The translations under genes were made by a program, and so were the position numbers. Positions 44,980 to 61,018 of a DNA stretch of 64,000 bases are shown in pieces (positions within the stretch are counted from its first letter, which is position 1; each line of letters begins with the position of its first letter). The notes beneath the pieces were generated by a model. The model was given only the letters and a program-made list of their open reading frames with translations. It had not been told where the DNA came from and made no database searches. Source of the DNA: Candidatus Endolissoclinum faulkneri L2. GTDB lineage: Bacteria > Pseudomonadota > Alphaproteobacteria > Thalassobaculales > Thalassobaculaceae. Where the stretch lies: positions 1,255,266 to 1,319,265 of the forward strand of contig NC_019566.1 of the NCBI RefSeq assembly GCF_000319385.1, read 5' to 3'.

Positions 44980-45726
44980 AAAAAAAATATAACAAATATT
45001 AAACTTCTTCTCAAATACTAATTTTTAATTTGCATCAAATTATTAATGTTAATTTTTAACGATATCATAACAACCCTCTTTTAAGCTTAAGTTGAAATGA
45101 ATACTCTAGATATCTTAAAAAAAAATAACAACTTAAATTACGATTTTCTTGATTAATGATAGTGAATTAAATACTAGTAGACATACAATAATATTTTAAT
45201 CCTATTGTAATATTCTAATAAATAACTGGTATTATAAATGCTTCCCTTTAAAAGTTGAATGATCTTATCTAGCAATGTAATTGCATTGTAATTATGCTGA
45301 ATTTATTACAGAAAAGCAAAGGTAGACATTGACGAGTTAATAAAGAATAAAATTTTTTACTAAAAATTTAGTATTAAATAATTTTTCAAAAGTATTTAAT
45401 TGATATAATTAAGAAATTAATAATTTATTATTGACTATATAATTATAGCAAATAATAAATTTGTTGTGCTAATTTTTTCAGCCAATACTTTAGCTTAAAA
45501 AGCTTTAGTCATGCTTTGAATATTAGAAATGACATATTTAAACGTTCTGTATATTATTCCATCATTGGAACTTTAGATAGTTTTAAATGATTTTTTTACC
45601 AAGTTTATATTTATTGCTATTTTGCATAGGATTAGATAATTAGCAGCAATTTAATTGACATATTAGTTTTTTTGTATTAACCAAATTTTCCAAGAAAAAG
45701 TTATGATTCGTCAGACAATCACTTGA
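44962..45726. other. divergent gene-free stretch between uvrB and aroA
   Basis: 765 bp with the uvrB homopolymer at the left end. TTGACA at 45655-45660 lies 67 bp before aroA but has no properly spaced -10. I did not find the FYDLN-acid protein that often precedes aroA in relatives. Confidence 0.65.
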
Positions 45727-47100
45727 ATGCTATCTTCTGATATGGAGCCTTTAGTGACTAAGCGGCTGATTTCATCACGTGCTCGCTCGTTGGCTGGGAA
45801 AATAAATATTCCTGGTGATAATTTAATTTCTCAACGTTCCCTAATCTTAGGAAGCTTATCGATAGGTGAAACCATAATAGAAGGTTTGTTAGAAAATGAT
45901 GAAGTGCTTGCAACAGCTAAAGCGATGCAATCCTTCGGTGCTACTATTGAGAAGATGGGAAAAGGAGTACACTGGAGAGTAGTAGGTCGTGGCGTAGGTG
46001 GTTTAGACGAACCAACAGATGTGATCAACTGCAATAATGCCATTTCTAATCTGCAATTGCTGATAGGTGCAGCAGTAGGTCAGCCGATAACGACTTTTTT
46101 TACTGGCAATGGATCTTTCCAGCCTCAATCGCTATGGCAAACTGTGGAGCCATTGGAAAGTATGGGGGTTAAAGTTGTTGCCCACAAAGGATTTACTCTA
46201 CCAATTGCGGTAATTGCTCCTGAAACGCTCATACCGATTAGCTATATTATGCCAACTTCTTCCGATTCAATTAAATCAGCTATCCTCATAGCAGGTATAG
46301 CCGCTCCGGGTGAGACTACCTTGATTGAAACAGTAACAACCTATGATCATACTGAAATAATGCTGCGTTATTTTGGCGCTGAAATTAACATAAAAAATAC
46401 AGAGGCAGGTCGTTGCATATCGCTGCTTGGTGAGGTGGAGTTGACTGGGCGTCAGATCGTAATACCCGCCAATCCTGCCTCAGCTGTTTTTCCAGCAGTT
46501 GCCGCTTTATTGATAGAAGATTCTGAGATATTATTACCCAATGTAGGTGTTAATCCGCTGCGTTTCTACGTTTTCGAAGCTTTGCAAGAAATGGGGGCTG
46601 ATATTGAGCTGATTAACAGGCGTATGAAATGTGGTGAGCCAACCGCTGATTTAGCCGTGCGTCACTCACGTCTAAAGGGCATAGAAGTACCACAAAAGCA
46701 AGCTCTGTCGATGGTCAATGAATATCCTATTTTCTTAGTTGCGGCCGCTTGTGCTGATGGTGTGACTATTATGCGAGGGCTTATCTCTGGAATGAAAGTA
46801 AAGGAACGTAACCAGCTAATTGATACTATCAATGATTTGATTTCCGTTGGCGTTCAGATTGAAATAGATGGTGCTGATCTAAAAGTCATAGGGGCTAGTA
46901 ATGGTATAGCTGGTGGTGCAAAGATATCAGTTGATATTAACGATTGCATTATCCTAGCTTTTCTCGTGCTAGGCATGGTCTCGATGGATAAGATCGCTAT
47001 CGATGTCGTAACGGGGGTTATTAACTCTTTTCCCAGTTTTAGTAAGCTGATGAATAAAGCCGGCGCATCAATTACAAATATCGATGATTATTGCTATTGA
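45727..47100 (+). CDS. aroA: AroA (EPSP synthase) homologue with replaced active-site residues
   Basis: By overall sequence, length (457 residues) and position before cmk-rpsA-ihfB this is the alphaproteobacterial 3-phosphoshikimate 1-carboxyvinyltransferase of the shikimate pathway. Conserved frame strings remain (LLIGAAVGQPITTFFTG, IAAPGETTLIE, SRLKGIEVP). But the ligand-binding residues are gone. PGDKSIS reads PGDNLIS (Asn32, Leu33); the GNAGTAMR motif reads NNAISNLQ (103-110); the GDASLRKRP motif reads GNGSFQPQS (Gln134); SAQVKS reads SDSIKS (Ser181); TRDHTE reads TYDHTE; DEYP reads NEYP (Asn331); KESDRL reads KERNQL (Gln363); DHRI reads NDCI (Cys407). Arg37 and Glu360 persist. EPSP synthase activity is unlikely. 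It may be a repurposed protein, or a gene near death whose frame is still open. cmk starts inside its end. No Shine-Dalgarno; Met6 is an alternative start. Confidence 0.85.
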   Translation: MLSSDMEPLVTKRLISSRARSLAGKINIPGDNLISQRSLILGSLSIGETIIEGLLENDEVLATAKAMQSFGATIEKMGKGVHWRVVGRGVGGLDEPTDVINCNNAISNLQLLIGAAVGQPITTFFTGNGSFQPQSLWQTVEPLESMGVKVVAHKGFTLPIAVIAPETLIPISYIMPTSSDSIKSAILIAGIAAPGETTLIETVTTYDHTEIMLRYFGAEINIKNTEAGRCISLLGEVELTGRQIVIPANPASAVFPAVAALLIEDSEILLPNVGVNPLRFYVFEALQEMGADIELINRRMKCGEPTADLAVRHSRLKGIEVPQKQALSMVNEYPIFLVAAACADGVTIMRGLISGMKVKERNQLIDTINDLISVGVQIEIDGADLKVIGASNGIAGGAKISVDINDCIILAFLVLGMVSMDKIAIDVVTGVINSFPSFSKLMNKAGASITNIDDYCY

Positions 47101-47731
47101 TGGCCCAGCAGGGGCTGGTAAAGGTACTCTTTCGAAGTTACTAGCAGATTATTTGGGATATCCGTACTTAGACACAGGTGCGTTGTATCGAGCAACGGCT
47201 CTCTCTTTTATCAAAAATGCTGCCGATCCTGAGGATCCAACAGTTGCAAAATCTACGGTAGAATCTATCATAATTGATATGATTGATGGAGATGATTTGC
47301 GTACTAGCGAAGTAACGTTAGCCTCTTCTAAGATTGCTGCAATTCCGGCTGTGCGTGCAGCTTTGCTTGATTACCAGCGAAAATTTGCGCATCGTCCTCC
47401 TGGTGCTATTTTAGATGGTCGTGATATTACTACAGTGGTCGTGCCCGAGGCTAATGTAAAGTTGTTTGTTACAGCTTTATTAGAGGTGCGTGCTCTTCGC
47501 AGATATCAAGAGTTGCTAGATCGCGGTGAGGTCAGTATATATGATAAAGTTCTAACTGAAATTAAAACACGTGACGAGCAGGATAAAACTAGAACTAGTG
47601 CTCCCATGCGTAAAGCAGATGATGCGATTGAGATTGATACCTCGTACCTTAAACCGTTGGGTGTTTTGCGTATTGCTTTAAATATTATATCGAGGCGGCA
47701 AAAGGAAAATTTTAAGATTTTAAGCCTTTAA
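47084..47731 (+). CDS. cmk: cytidylate kinase
   Basis: Phosphorylates CMP and dCMP. 215 residues: P-loop GPAGAGKGT (7-15), LDTGALYRA, IPAVRAAL, the DGRDITTVV loop, and RDEQDKTR, where the Arg, Asp and Arg that hold the CMP phosphate in the E. coli enzyme are all kept. So, unlike its neighbour aroA, its active site is intact. It overlaps the end of aroA by 17 bases and so probably depends on aroA translation, which could itself favour keeping the aroA frame open. Confidence 0.96.
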   Translation: MIIAIDGPAGAGKGTLSKLLADYLGYPYLDTGALYRATALSFIKNAADPEDPTVAKSTVESIIIDMIDGDDLRTSEVTLASSKIAAIPAVRAALLDYQRKFAHRPPGAILDGRDITTVVVPEANVKLFVTALLEVRALRRYQELLDRGEVSIYDKVLTEIKTRDEQDKTRTSAPMRKADDAIEIDTSYLKPLGVLRIALNIISRRQKENFKILSL

Positions 47732-47985: not shown

Positions 47986-49689
47986 ATGGCAGAAGCCGCT
48001 TACGCGGACGAATTTGAATCCATGTTAGAGGAGTCATTCGGTCATGTACCCTCGATTGAGGGCAGTGTAGTTAAAGGTATAGTAGTAAGCTTGGAGAATG
48101 GAAATGCACTGATTGATGTTGGGCTTAAATCTGAAGGGATTGTGGCGCTGAAAGAATTCACTTCTTCGAGTCATGATGTTAAACTAAATGTTGGGGATGA
48201 GGTTGAAGTTTATGTTGAACGCTTAGAAAACAATAATGGTGAGACAATACTGAGTCGTGATAAAGCGCGTCGTGAAGAGGCATGGGCTGCTTTAGAGCGT
48301 GCATTCAATAGTAGCGAACGAGTTACCGGTATAATCTTTTCGCGTGTTAAAGGCGGTTTTACCGTTGACCTATCTGGTGCAATGGCTTTTTTACCTGGTA
48401 GTCAGGTTGATATTCGTCCAGTGCGCGATATTGGTCCATTAATGGGTACTCCTCAACCATTTCAAATTCTTAAGATGGATCGCCGGCGTGGTAACATTGT
48501 AGTTTCTCGTCGAGCTGTTCTTGAAGAGAGTCGTGCAGAAGCAAGAAGTGAATTAGTTGCTTCGCTGAAGGAGGGTATGATTCTTCAAGGGGTAGTTAAA
48601 AATATCACTGATTACGGCGCTTTCGTTGATTTGGGTGGTGTTGATGGACTGCTGCATGTGACTGATGTTGCTTGGCGTCGTATTAATCATCCTACTGAAG
48701 CCCTACAGATCGGTCAAACTGTAAAAGTGCAGGTTGTTCGTTTCAATCCGGAAACACAGCGTATTTCTCTAGGTATGAAGCAACTCGAAGCCGATCCTTG
48801 GGAAGATGTTGAAATGCGTTATCTTATCGGCACAAAATTTGCTGGTCGAGTCACTAACATCACTGATTACGGCGCTTTCGTTGAGCTTCAACCTGGTATC
48901 GAGGGTTTAGTGCATGTCTCTGAGATGAGTTGGACTAAGAAGAATTTTCATCCTGGCAAGATTGTTTCAACCTCTCAAGAGGTTGAAGTAATGATCTTGG
49001 ATGTTGATCCGCAAAAACGTCGTATCTCTCTTGGTTTAAAACAGTGTCTTGGTAATCCGTGGGAAGCCTTTATTAATAAATACCCGCTGGATGCAGAACT
49101 TGATGGGGAAATAAAAAACATTACTGAGTTTGGTTTGTTTATTGGACTTCCCGGTGAAATCGACGGCATGGTACACCTTTCAGATATCGACTGGAATATT
49201 CCGGGTGAAGAAGCAATCCAAAAGTACAATAAAGGTGATATAGTTCGTGCGAAAGTTCTAGATGTTGACGTCGATAAAGAGCGTATTTCTCTTGGTATTA
49301 AGCAATTAATAGCTGATCCTTTTGAAGTGGGTGCTGCTAATACTCGTAAAGGAGCGGTTCTGACCTGTATAGTAACTAAGATTACTGACGGCGGCATTGA
49401 AGTTAGTGTAGGCAACGGTATGAACGGCTTCATACGAAAATCAGATCTATCCCGCGATCGTTTCGAGCAACGCTCTGATCGCTTTGCTGTTGATGAAAAA
49501 GTTGATGCTAAAGTTATCAATGTTGACAACAAAACACGTAGGGTACTGCTATCCATTAAGGCCCGCGAAGTCGAAGAGGAGAAAAAAGCAATGCAAGAAT
49601 ATGGCTCTTCTGATAGCGGTGCGAGTCTGGGTGAAATTTTGGGTGCTGCGTTAAATCAACGTGAAGAAGGTAAAAAGACAAATGATTAG
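47986..49689 (+). CDS. rpsA: 30S ribosomal protein S1
   Basis: Binds mRNA on the small ribosomal subunit. The 567 residues contain six S1 (OB-fold) repeats beginning near residues 24, 107, 198, 284, 371 and 456, for example LQGVVKNITDYGAFVDLGG and FAGRVTNITDYGAFVELQPG. Strong Shine-Dalgarno GAGGAG (47973-47978) and ATG start. Repeats 3 and 4 share an exact 26-base DNA block at 48604-48629 and 48859-48884. Own promoter upstream; ihfB follows after 204 bp, with a weak hairpin (49802-49830) between them. Standard aroA-cmk-rpsA-ihfB neighbourhood. Confidence 0.97.
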   Translation: MAEAAYADEFESMLEESFGHVPSIEGSVVKGIVVSLENGNALIDVGLKSEGIVALKEFTSSSHDVKLNVGDEVEVYVERLENNNGETILSRDKARREEAWAALERAFNSSERVTGIIFSRVKGGFTVDLSGAMAFLPGSQVDIRPVRDIGPLMGTPQPFQILKMDRRRGNIVVSRRAVLEESRAEARSELVASLKEGMILQGVVKNITDYGAFVDLGGVDGLLHVTDVAWRRINHPTEALQIGQTVKVQVVRFNPETQRISLGMKQLEADPWEDVEMRYLIGTKFAGRVTNITDYGAFVELQPGIEGLVHVSEMSWTKKNFHPGKIVSTSQEVEVMILDVDPQKRRISLGLKQCLGNPWEAFINKYPLDAELDGEIKNITEFGLFIGLPGEIDGMVHLSDIDWNIPGEEAIQKYNKGDIVRAKVLDVDVDKERISLGIKQLIADPFEVGAANTRKGAVLTCIVTKITDGGIEVSVGNGMNGFIRKSDLSRDRFEQRSDRFAVDEKVDAKVINVDNKTRRVLLSIKAREVEEEKKAMQEYGSSDSGASLGEILGAALNQREEGKKTND

Positions 49690-59193: not shown

Positions 59194-60514
59194 TTTTCGC
59201 TCTCCTAAACGGCTATATTGATACCTTCAGCAGATAATGCACGAATAGCAATGATAATCATTTATTTACTTTTGCTTCTTTATTTTTGTTATATTCAACA
59301 ATAATTATTCCGTTTTGCAGAAAATTATACATTGTAACTAAAATTTGATACTAGAACAACTAGTATCAAATTAATAACAACTTTTCAATCACTTATTCGT
59401 CTTGCTTTCGTTCTTCGCGCAAATTTTTTTATGTCTAGTACTGTTATTCTATAAAAACTACTTATTCATCACATGAATAATATCAACTTTCTGCATCTGA
59501 AGCAATTAATGCATAAAAAGCACTAATGTTTAAAAAAAAATAATTGAATTTTAATTGCAAAAAATTTATTTAGTATTCATAAAATAATAATATCAATACT
59601 AGATCATATAAGTGAAAACATTTTGGGTTATTTTTTACCTCTTTGTTGGTATTAGAACGAAAATTCGCAATTGCATTCTAAAACATTATAAAGATTTTGT
59701 GAGAAAAAGCTTTAAACGAAATCATCGAAAGATTGCAATACGATAAGCAACTTAAGAAGCTATTTTTAAATATTACTTATAGCATATCCTCAAAATAAGG
59801 ATATGCTACTTAATTTGGGATTAGAGCCCAATTGATTCTCTGCTTAATCTCTTACAGCTTTAAATTCTAATGAATATATCAATTGATATTATCGCATAAA
59901 TTTTGAAGTTGTGTATTTCCTTGGAAGGAAAAGAAAGTATTTAAATAATAATCCAAATTATTATTCATAATCACATGATACTTATAGTGAGAACGATACG
60001 CTTGTATTTACTCGTTAACAGCTCAATATCTCATATTGATTATATAAAAAAAATTAATACCAAGAATCTTCTATTAATTTAAGATCAACAATAAAGTAAA
60101 ATAAGCTTAGATTAACATTACGCTTGTGTATTATACATTGCTGGCGCAATGCAAAAGTTCAATATCAAATCTAAATTTCCTTTCCTTAATACTAATTCAA
60201 TATCTTGTAATCAATTCATTCCATAACTAGAATTATTTCTGCAAATAAGGCTATTAGTCATAAAAAATAATCTAATCCTTTTACCCATATCTCCCACAAC
60301 AACCAACTCACTGCTGATAATTTTGTATTATTAAAAATTATTAGCAAAAAACTTTTGTAATTAAATCAATTCTGTGATTGAAGATTATTCTTCAATGGTA
60401 ACAAAAATTGTGCTTTAATCAGATTAAATAGCTAATAAATTTTACCATAATGATATCACCTATGTTATACTTCGTATAACATAGCTTACTTAAGGTTTAA
60501 ATTTGGAATTTATT
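59194..60514. other. 1.3-kb divergent gene-free stretch between tsaE and folK
   Basis: No gene. A hairpin with perfect 11-bp arms (59780-59790 and 59798-59808, 7-base loop) sits in the middle, about 600 bp from either gene. The folK promoter palindrome is at the right end. Confidence 0.65.
60442..60484 (+). promoter_or_regulatory. folK promoter inside an 11-bp palindrome
   Basis: TTACCA (60442-60447), 18-base spacer, then extended -10 TGTTATACT (60463-60471). The -10 box forms one arm of a perfect inverted repeat, 60460-60470 with 60474-60484, TTC loop. Nearly the same -35/-10 pair precedes rpoZ. Site overlap suggests possible repressor control. Confidence 0.45.
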
Positions 60515-61018
60515 ATGATTATTGTCGCCCTTGGTGCAAATCTTTCAGCGAATGGATACGATACCCCGTTAGCTACTTGCGAGGCGGCTGTCCTTTTTTT
60601 GAAGCAAGAAGAAGATATTGAAGTGCTACGCTGTTCCCGTTGGTTTAGATCTAAGCCGGTGCCAATGTCTAAACAGCCGAAATTTGTAAACGGCGCCGTC
60701 ACTGTTAATACTACGTTATCTCCCGAAAACCTTTTATCGCGTCTGCATACCATTGAGAATTCTTTCGGCAGAGTCCGCCAAGTACAAAATGAGGCACGAA
60801 AACTAGACCTTGATCTTATAGACTTTAATGGAAAGGTTAAAGTTAGTTCGGTTCCGCCTATGCTGCCACATCCACGTACAGCAGAAAGAGCCTTTGTTTT
60901 ATTACCAGTTCGTGATCTATCTCCAAATTGGCAACATCCGATTACTGGCAAAACAGTTTCCGCAATGATCAGCGCATTATCTTCAGATATACGAGATATT
61001 TATCCGCTTACTGAATAA
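60515..61018 (+). CDS. folK: dihydropterin pyrophosphokinase FolK
   Basis: Transfers pyrophosphate from ATP to 6-hydroxymethyl-dihydropterin in folate synthesis. I use the ATG at 60515 (167 residues), which gives the family start MIIVALGANL; a TTG at 60503 with AAGG seven bases upstream is an alternative adding four residues. Conserved features: RSKPVPMSKQPKFVNGAV, the catalytic ARKLDLDLIDFNG Asp pair and LPHPRTAERAFVLLPV. Normal length. rpoZ follows with its own promoter. Confidence 0.95.
   Translation: MIIVALGANLSANGYDTPLATCEAAVLFLKQEEDIEVLRCSRWFRSKPVPMSKQPKFVNGAVTVNTTLSPENLLSRLHTIENSFGRVRQVQNEARKLDLDLIDFNGKVKVSSVPPMLPHPRTAERAFVLLPVRDLSPNWQHPITGKTVSAMISALSSDIRDIYPLTE

Follow-up and report, generated by a model that had tools for sequence, protein, structure and literature searches.

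CP4-type EPSP synthase loci have the gene order aroA-cmk-rpsA-ihfB, and natural AroA-Cmk fusion proteins occur in other bacteria. Our literature search found no EPSP synthase pseudoenzyme. Cryptic pseudogenes have been described in young symbionts, where their evolution is neutral and their frames are open simply because too little time has passed (PMC3499248). For Candidatus Endolissoclinum faulkneri, Kwan and Schmidt suspected that some intact genes may be nonfunctional, and estimated 6-31 million years since the split of the two host lineages (PMC3851785). There is no mention of aroA or the shikimate pathway in that paper.

Here we analysed a stretch of 64,000 nucleotides (the window, G000 C1:1255266-1319265) of the sea-squirt symbiont Ca. 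E. faulkneri L2, the genome of which is one contig of 1,481,191 bases. It was compared with the sister genome of an L5-like symbiont (G001; 1,518,636 bases) and with same-genus genomes of free-living size (G002-G005). The wider comparison included 12 free-living relatives and 116-118 other alphaproteobacterial AroAs. The window has the same gene order as CP4-type loci, and the following features were considered around aroA:

45727..47100, forward strand: aroA, probable EPSP synthase-fold pseudoenzyme, open reading frame of 457 aa with full-length homology
47084..47731, forward strand: cmk, (d)CMP kinase, above the curated cut-off, with its start codon within aroA
47084..47100, forward strand: overlap of aroA and cmk, 17 nt
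47986..49689, forward strand: rpsA, the gene after cmk, used as control, with its own Shine-Dalgarno-like GAGGAG
45643..45679, forward strand: TTGACA-bearing stretch (TTGACA at 45655), conserved in the sister, immediately 5' of aroA

Family identity, ligand pocket and shikimate pathway

A preliminary description of this DNA had aligned the open reading frame along its whole length to EPSP synthase. This was borne out by matches to PF00275 (202.6 bits), to the TIGR01356 aroA profile and to the CP4 EPSP synthase 2gg4/2gg6, the best matching solved structures. The TIGR01356 score of 229 bits falls short of the curated cut-off (287). MurA identity was rejected for this frame (30.5 bits versus a curated murA cut-off of 392.7). 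The true MurA of the symbiont is found in L001 (553.8 bits) and is the only other AroA/MurA family member in the symbiont genome, in which no second aroA was found. Met6 (45742) is the likelier start of aroA and aligns with the starts of free-living homologues. In the sister the aroA frame is also open (L115:8024-9382), with 81% amino acid identity to the window AroA. AlphaFold2, given 20 aligned live homologues, predicted the EPSP synthase fold (pLDDT 88.3, pTM 0.87). The model lies nearest to CP4 2gg4 in its unliganded state (TM 0.90), with the liganded form a little further off (0.87). Without an alignment there was no usable model (pLDDT 34), so the model is steered by the live enzymes and is weak evidence of foldability.

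Pocket positions were defined by mapping to the E. coli and CP4 enzymes. Nine replacements had been named before (N32, L33, S107, Q110, Q134, S181, N331, Q363 and C407) and all were correct. Of the residues said to be the only ones remaining, Arg27 and Glu341 are indeed kept, but so are the equivalents of Asn94, Ser169 and Lys340. The losses extend further, to Asp242 (N249), CP4 Arg200 (Y206) and His385 (D406). Among the equivalents of Lys22, Arg124, Gln171, Asp313, Glu341, Arg344 and Arg386, Glu341 alone is retained in L2. With the free-living G004 as reference, 16 of 21 pocket positions are changed in L2 and 15 of 21 in the sister. The main altered sites are:

45820..45837, forward strand: codons 32-37, former KSISHR (K22-S23..R27), now NLISQR; NLISQL in the sister
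46033..46056, forward strand: codons 103-110, former GNAGTGMR loop, now NNAISNLQ; DNTSSIVQ in the sister; equivalents of T97 and R100 lost
46126..46128, forward strand: codon 134, former Arg124, Gln in both symbionts
46261..46269, forward strand: codons 179-181, former S-A-Q (S3P contact), now S-D-S; S-V-S in the sister
46717..46719, forward strand: codon 331, former catalytic Asp313, Asn in L2 and Asp in the sister
46942..46947, forward strand: codons 406-407, former His385-Arg386, now Asp-Cys; Asp-His in the sister

The same replacement was found in both symbionts for K32N, S33L, T107S, R110Q, R134Q, Q181S, R206Y, D249N, H406D and T433N. D331N and R363Q are limited to L2 and R37L to the sister, and R407 has become Cys in L2 and His in the sister. 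Canonical residues are retained throughout the 12 free-living relatives, none of which shows the replacements of the symbiont, and the 116-118 other AroAs show practically no variation at 17 pocket residues. Since most of the pocket losses are common to both symbionts, the S3P/PEP pocket was already ruined in their common ancestor and catalysis was lost before their split, and the matching replacements in the sister together with the near-invariance elsewhere argue against chance or assembly error. As judged from the positions that differ between the symbionts, erosion of the pocket continued after the split. Among columns that are invariant in the 12 free-living relatives, 55 of 142 were changed in at least one symbiont in aroA, as compared to 3 of 56 in cmk and 16 of 339 in rpsA. 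The fractions were also high in maf (0.35) and hisG (0.23), so such loss is not unique to aroA and carries less weight. Two other alphaproteobacterial AroAs, L148 (G124) and L152 (G267), have H406D together with R407Y/H at the position that binds PEP, and keep the other pocket residues that are covered.

Searches for aroB, aroC, aroK, aroE (N-terminal domain), aroQ, chorismate-binding enzymes and class II DAHP synthase found none in either symbiont, with clear matches for the same searches in G002 and G004. The only shikimate gene found in the symbionts by these searches is thus aroA, and the earlier suggestion that the organism lacks the pathway held up, as the other aro genes searched for were undetectable in both symbionts and only MurA was found besides. 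The histidine biosynthesis genes hisA/hisF, hisG and hisD are kept in the symbionts, indicating that the shikimate loss is selective. A folate synthesis gene, folK, is retained in the window at 60503-61018 and no PabB-type chorismate-using enzyme was detectable, so that p-aminobenzoate or a later intermediate would need an outside source.

From the residues and the pathway it is close to certain that AroA catalysis is dead. That AroA still works as an EPSP synthase through an unusual active site, or that it is an artefact of annotation or assembly, is hardly credible: nothing was found in favour of either, the pathway to serve is absent, two separate genomes agree, and the residues in question are retained in the 116-118 homologues.

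Selection on aroA since the split

Selection was estimated between L2 and the sister with a pairwise codon model (GY94, F3x4). For aroA the dN/dS was about 0.24-0.25 (0.247) at a dS of 0.42, with a likelihood ratio against neutrality of 73. In comparison, cmk gave 0.246 and the genes of the window 0.06-0.32. The values by quarters of aroA were even (0.22-0.26), so the constraint is not limited to the cmk end. Third-position identity was 0.77, similar to the neighbours, and gives no sign of unusual RNA constraint. The 449 aroA codons aligned with the sister are free of gaps and the upstream spacer is scrambled, with the TTGACA stretch as the exception. No internal stops were observed in aroA, as compared to about 8 per lineage expected in simulated neutral evolution. 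When stops were forbidden in the simulation, 46 +/- 2.5% amino acid identity was expected, versus the 81% observed.

Two plainer readings of the open frame had been put forward in the preliminary description, and neither agrees with these values. In the first, aroA is useless and dying, with its frame open by chance. The destroyed pocket, the drift-like GC loss, the degraded 5' end and the small 3' frame change in L2 aroA all fit with slow decay, and so do the non-pocket family-invariant sites, which are five times less constrained than those of cmk (0.135 vs 0.026). However, neutrality is rejected, the expected stops are missing, the codons are gap-free beside a scrambled spacer, and far more identity is kept than expected. 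A dN/dS near 1 with frameshifts in the sister had been named as a sign of simple decay, and the values found were 0.24 and 449 gap-free codons. Slow decay is largely refuted by comparison of the sister sequences and we consider it improbable. In the second reading the frame is open only for the sake of cmk; in its pure form this predicts the 46 +/- 2.5% identity of the simulation, in disagreement with the 81% between the sisters.

The constraint differed between classes of sites. In aroA the dN/dS was 0.565 for the pocket, 0.134 for other family-invariant sites and 0.269 for the rest, and three classes were better than one (2 dlnL 10.35, 2 d.f.). The pocket value was not distinguishable from 1 (2 dlnL about 2.5). 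At all-hydrophobic AroA sites the dN/dS was 0.146. Invariant sites of live genes gave 0.026 (cmk), 0.020 (rpsA), 0.025 (murA) and 0.043 (hisD), and surface-like sites gave 0.26 in aroA, 0.30 in cmk and 0.29 in hisD, based on small site numbers (48, 30 and 45). These comparisons provide good support for purifying selection of ordinary strength on the AroA protein along the whole gene, with the pocket alone relaxed. The pattern reads as a pocket that could drift freely under AT-biased mutation, with the remainder of AroA held. The pseudoenzyme reading of the earlier description was upheld in that catalytic residues are lost, the fold is predicted, and purifying selection has acted since the split. 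Acceleration on the stem was rejected as a sign of repurposing: the stem/tip ratio was 5.1 for aroA, 2.5 for cmk, 3.3 for both murA and rpsA and 4.9 for hisD, and with such a value in hisD the acceleration of aroA is not diagnostic.

Alternatively, the pocket may have been rebuilt for another substrate. Identical new residues in both symbionts (N32, L33, S107, Q110, Q134, S181, Y206, N249, D406, N433) would be in line with changed catalysis, and the two agree at 14/21 pocket positions, a little more than expected if only the frame were kept (P about 0.06). However, the pocket has the highest dN/dS of all classes, not distinguishable from 1, the symbionts have diverged after the split at D331 (N/D), R363 (Q/R), R407 (C/H) and R37 (R/L), and the anion-binding Arg/Lys residues are nearly all gone. 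Changes at family-invariant AroA sites were mostly toward GC loss (33 versus 7). In the pocket, the changes resemble relaxed drift accompanied by GC loss rather than remodelling, and a new catalytic activity appears very improbable.

Possible coupling to cmk and other altered enzymes

In L2, aroA and cmk overlap by 17 nt; the sister, like most of the free-living relatives checked, has a 4-nt overlap, ATGA. No Shine-Dalgarno-like stretch was seen ahead of the cmk ATG, whereas rpsA has GAGGAG. Judging from this arrangement, coupled translation of aroA and cmk is plausible. A two-base length difference within window positions 47065-47100 shifts the last aroA codons in L2 and extends the overlap from 4 to 17 nt. 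The TTGACA stretch is a candidate promoter of the aroA-cmk unit; in a promoter consensus scan, promoter-like sites were no more frequent than in shuffles. The sister start with its Shine-Dalgarno-like GGAGAAG (window 45700-45741 versus L115:7990-8038) corresponds to an ATG in L2 that is followed by TGA after seven codons. The L2 ATG at 45727 stands directly after that TGA, leaving a small upstream ORF or a degraded aroA start. The curated AroA-Cmk fusion family NF008816 matches both the window AroA and Cmk, which makes a physical association of the two thinkable.

A similar case was found elsewhere in the genome. The Maf homologue (L164:12531-13154; G000:C1:296530-297153) is in both symbionts without the PRR of SASPRR, and its S-R-E-K-D-K signature lacks the Glu, Lys52 and the catalytic Asp, according to the alignment used. 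Mutagenesis of the equivalents of Arg13, Lys52, Asp70 and Lys82 inactivated Maf proteins, and Asp to Asn inactivated ASMTL-Maf (PMC3899018). The sister Maf carries Asp to Asn at the catalytic Asp. The maf frame is open, with a dN/dS of 0.184 and neutrality rejected at 50; maf follows infA and has no same-strand gene for about 1.6 kb downstream. Judged by these residues and rates, Maf is a second dead-but-constrained enzyme of the symbiont genome, so that such proteins are not peculiar to aroA. As Maf is held without an essential gene directly downstream, linkage to an essential gene is not the whole reason or a general cause. HisG (L164:9308-10009) adjoins MurA and HisD and has 34 of 145 family-invariant positions changed, with the histidine pathway kept. 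Considered as a further dead enzyme, it has an intact PRPP loop, hisA/hisF are intact as well, and it is possibly relaxed or re-tuned.

AroA could also be an inert leader locked in the operon, of which the translation is needed for cmk and from which missense changes are removed only since a misfolded protein of 450 residues is harmful. This agrees with the cmk start inside aroA without a visible Shine-Dalgarno sequence, the ATGA shared by both genes in the sister and in the majority of relatives, the conserved stretch upstream of aroA, the tight all-hydrophobic sites (0.146) beside a relaxed pocket (0.57), and aroA as the only shikimate gene found. However, the surface-like sites are constrained as in working cmk and hisD, and a dead Maf is held just as strongly (0.18) although no dependent gene follows directly behind it. 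In addition, 53 of 289 alphaproteobacterial genomes had no aroA match, so aroA loss is possible in general. The same survey found no other full-length dead AroA; six of the 289 were below the cut-off and the non-symbiont ones were split or truncated matches. Taken together, we consider an inert leader less likely than a non-catalytic role.

The reading we favour, at a probability of roughly 0.55, is that AroA has the EPSP synthase fold but no catalysis, remains under selection, is presumably still made, and serves in some way other than as an enzyme. Two long-separated lineages have both kept a dead AroA under selection, which indicates that it probably has a role other than catalysis. When the shikimate pathway was lost, aroA alone among its genes may have been held in place, with a promoter on one side and the start of the essential gene cmk on the other, and the start of cmk within aroA may have kept it transcribed and translated. 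The folded AroA could then have kept or acquired its non-catalytic role; the simplest form would be that of a partner of Cmk, or its leader, translated along with it. The GC-loss bias at family-invariant sites is what drift would give and counts against the favoured reading, as do the decayed 5' region of aroA in L2, where the sister's start meets a stop after seven codons, and a Maf that is equally dead but constrained without a same-strand gene nearby. The dead AroA may have been co-opted, perhaps as Cmk partner, for a function that is both new and non-catalytic, as one of a set that includes Maf; this possibility we hold tentatively. In that case genome reduction would strip catalysis from proteins of which the folded bodies stay needed. 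On thin evidence we prefer a non-catalytic function of the folded AroA, probably linked to cmk, over a leader that only has to fold; the link to Cmk we infer from the gene context.

Comparison with known systems

Reduced genomes are read as parts lists, in which a gene present is taken as a function present. Here an intact and conserved aroA is found without pathway or active site, yet guarded by selection since the split of the host lineages. It offers a clear example from nature in which selection on folding, on operon expression and on a non-catalytic function could be told apart, and suggests that other intact symbiont genes merit screening for dead pockets.

The Maf homologue resembles AroA in the loss of its active-site signature in both symbionts, the open frame and the low dN/dS. 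It differs in its fold, in its operon (after infA) and in that no essential gene lies directly downstream. As compared to class II (CP4-type) EPSP synthase (TIGR01356), the window AroA is alike in full-length homology and predicted fold, but its pocket is destroyed, its pathway is gone and its score is below the cut-off. The bifunctional AroA-Cmk fusion NF008816 (PRK11860) has the identical two proteins in identical order, whereas in the window the genes are separate and overlapping and the AroA half appears dead. Like the cryptic pseudogenes of young symbionts (PMC3499248), aroA is an open frame without its original function; unlike them, it is under purifying selection (dN/dS 0.24) and was dead before the sisters split. 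In general, AroA is probably a maintained pseudoenzyme, a folded non-catalytic protein tied to cmk, and as in other pseudoenzymes fold and purifying selection are kept while catalytic residues are lost. Where the role of a pseudoenzyme is known, a partner or a regulatory function has been identified; for AroA, a partnership with Cmk is our proposal.
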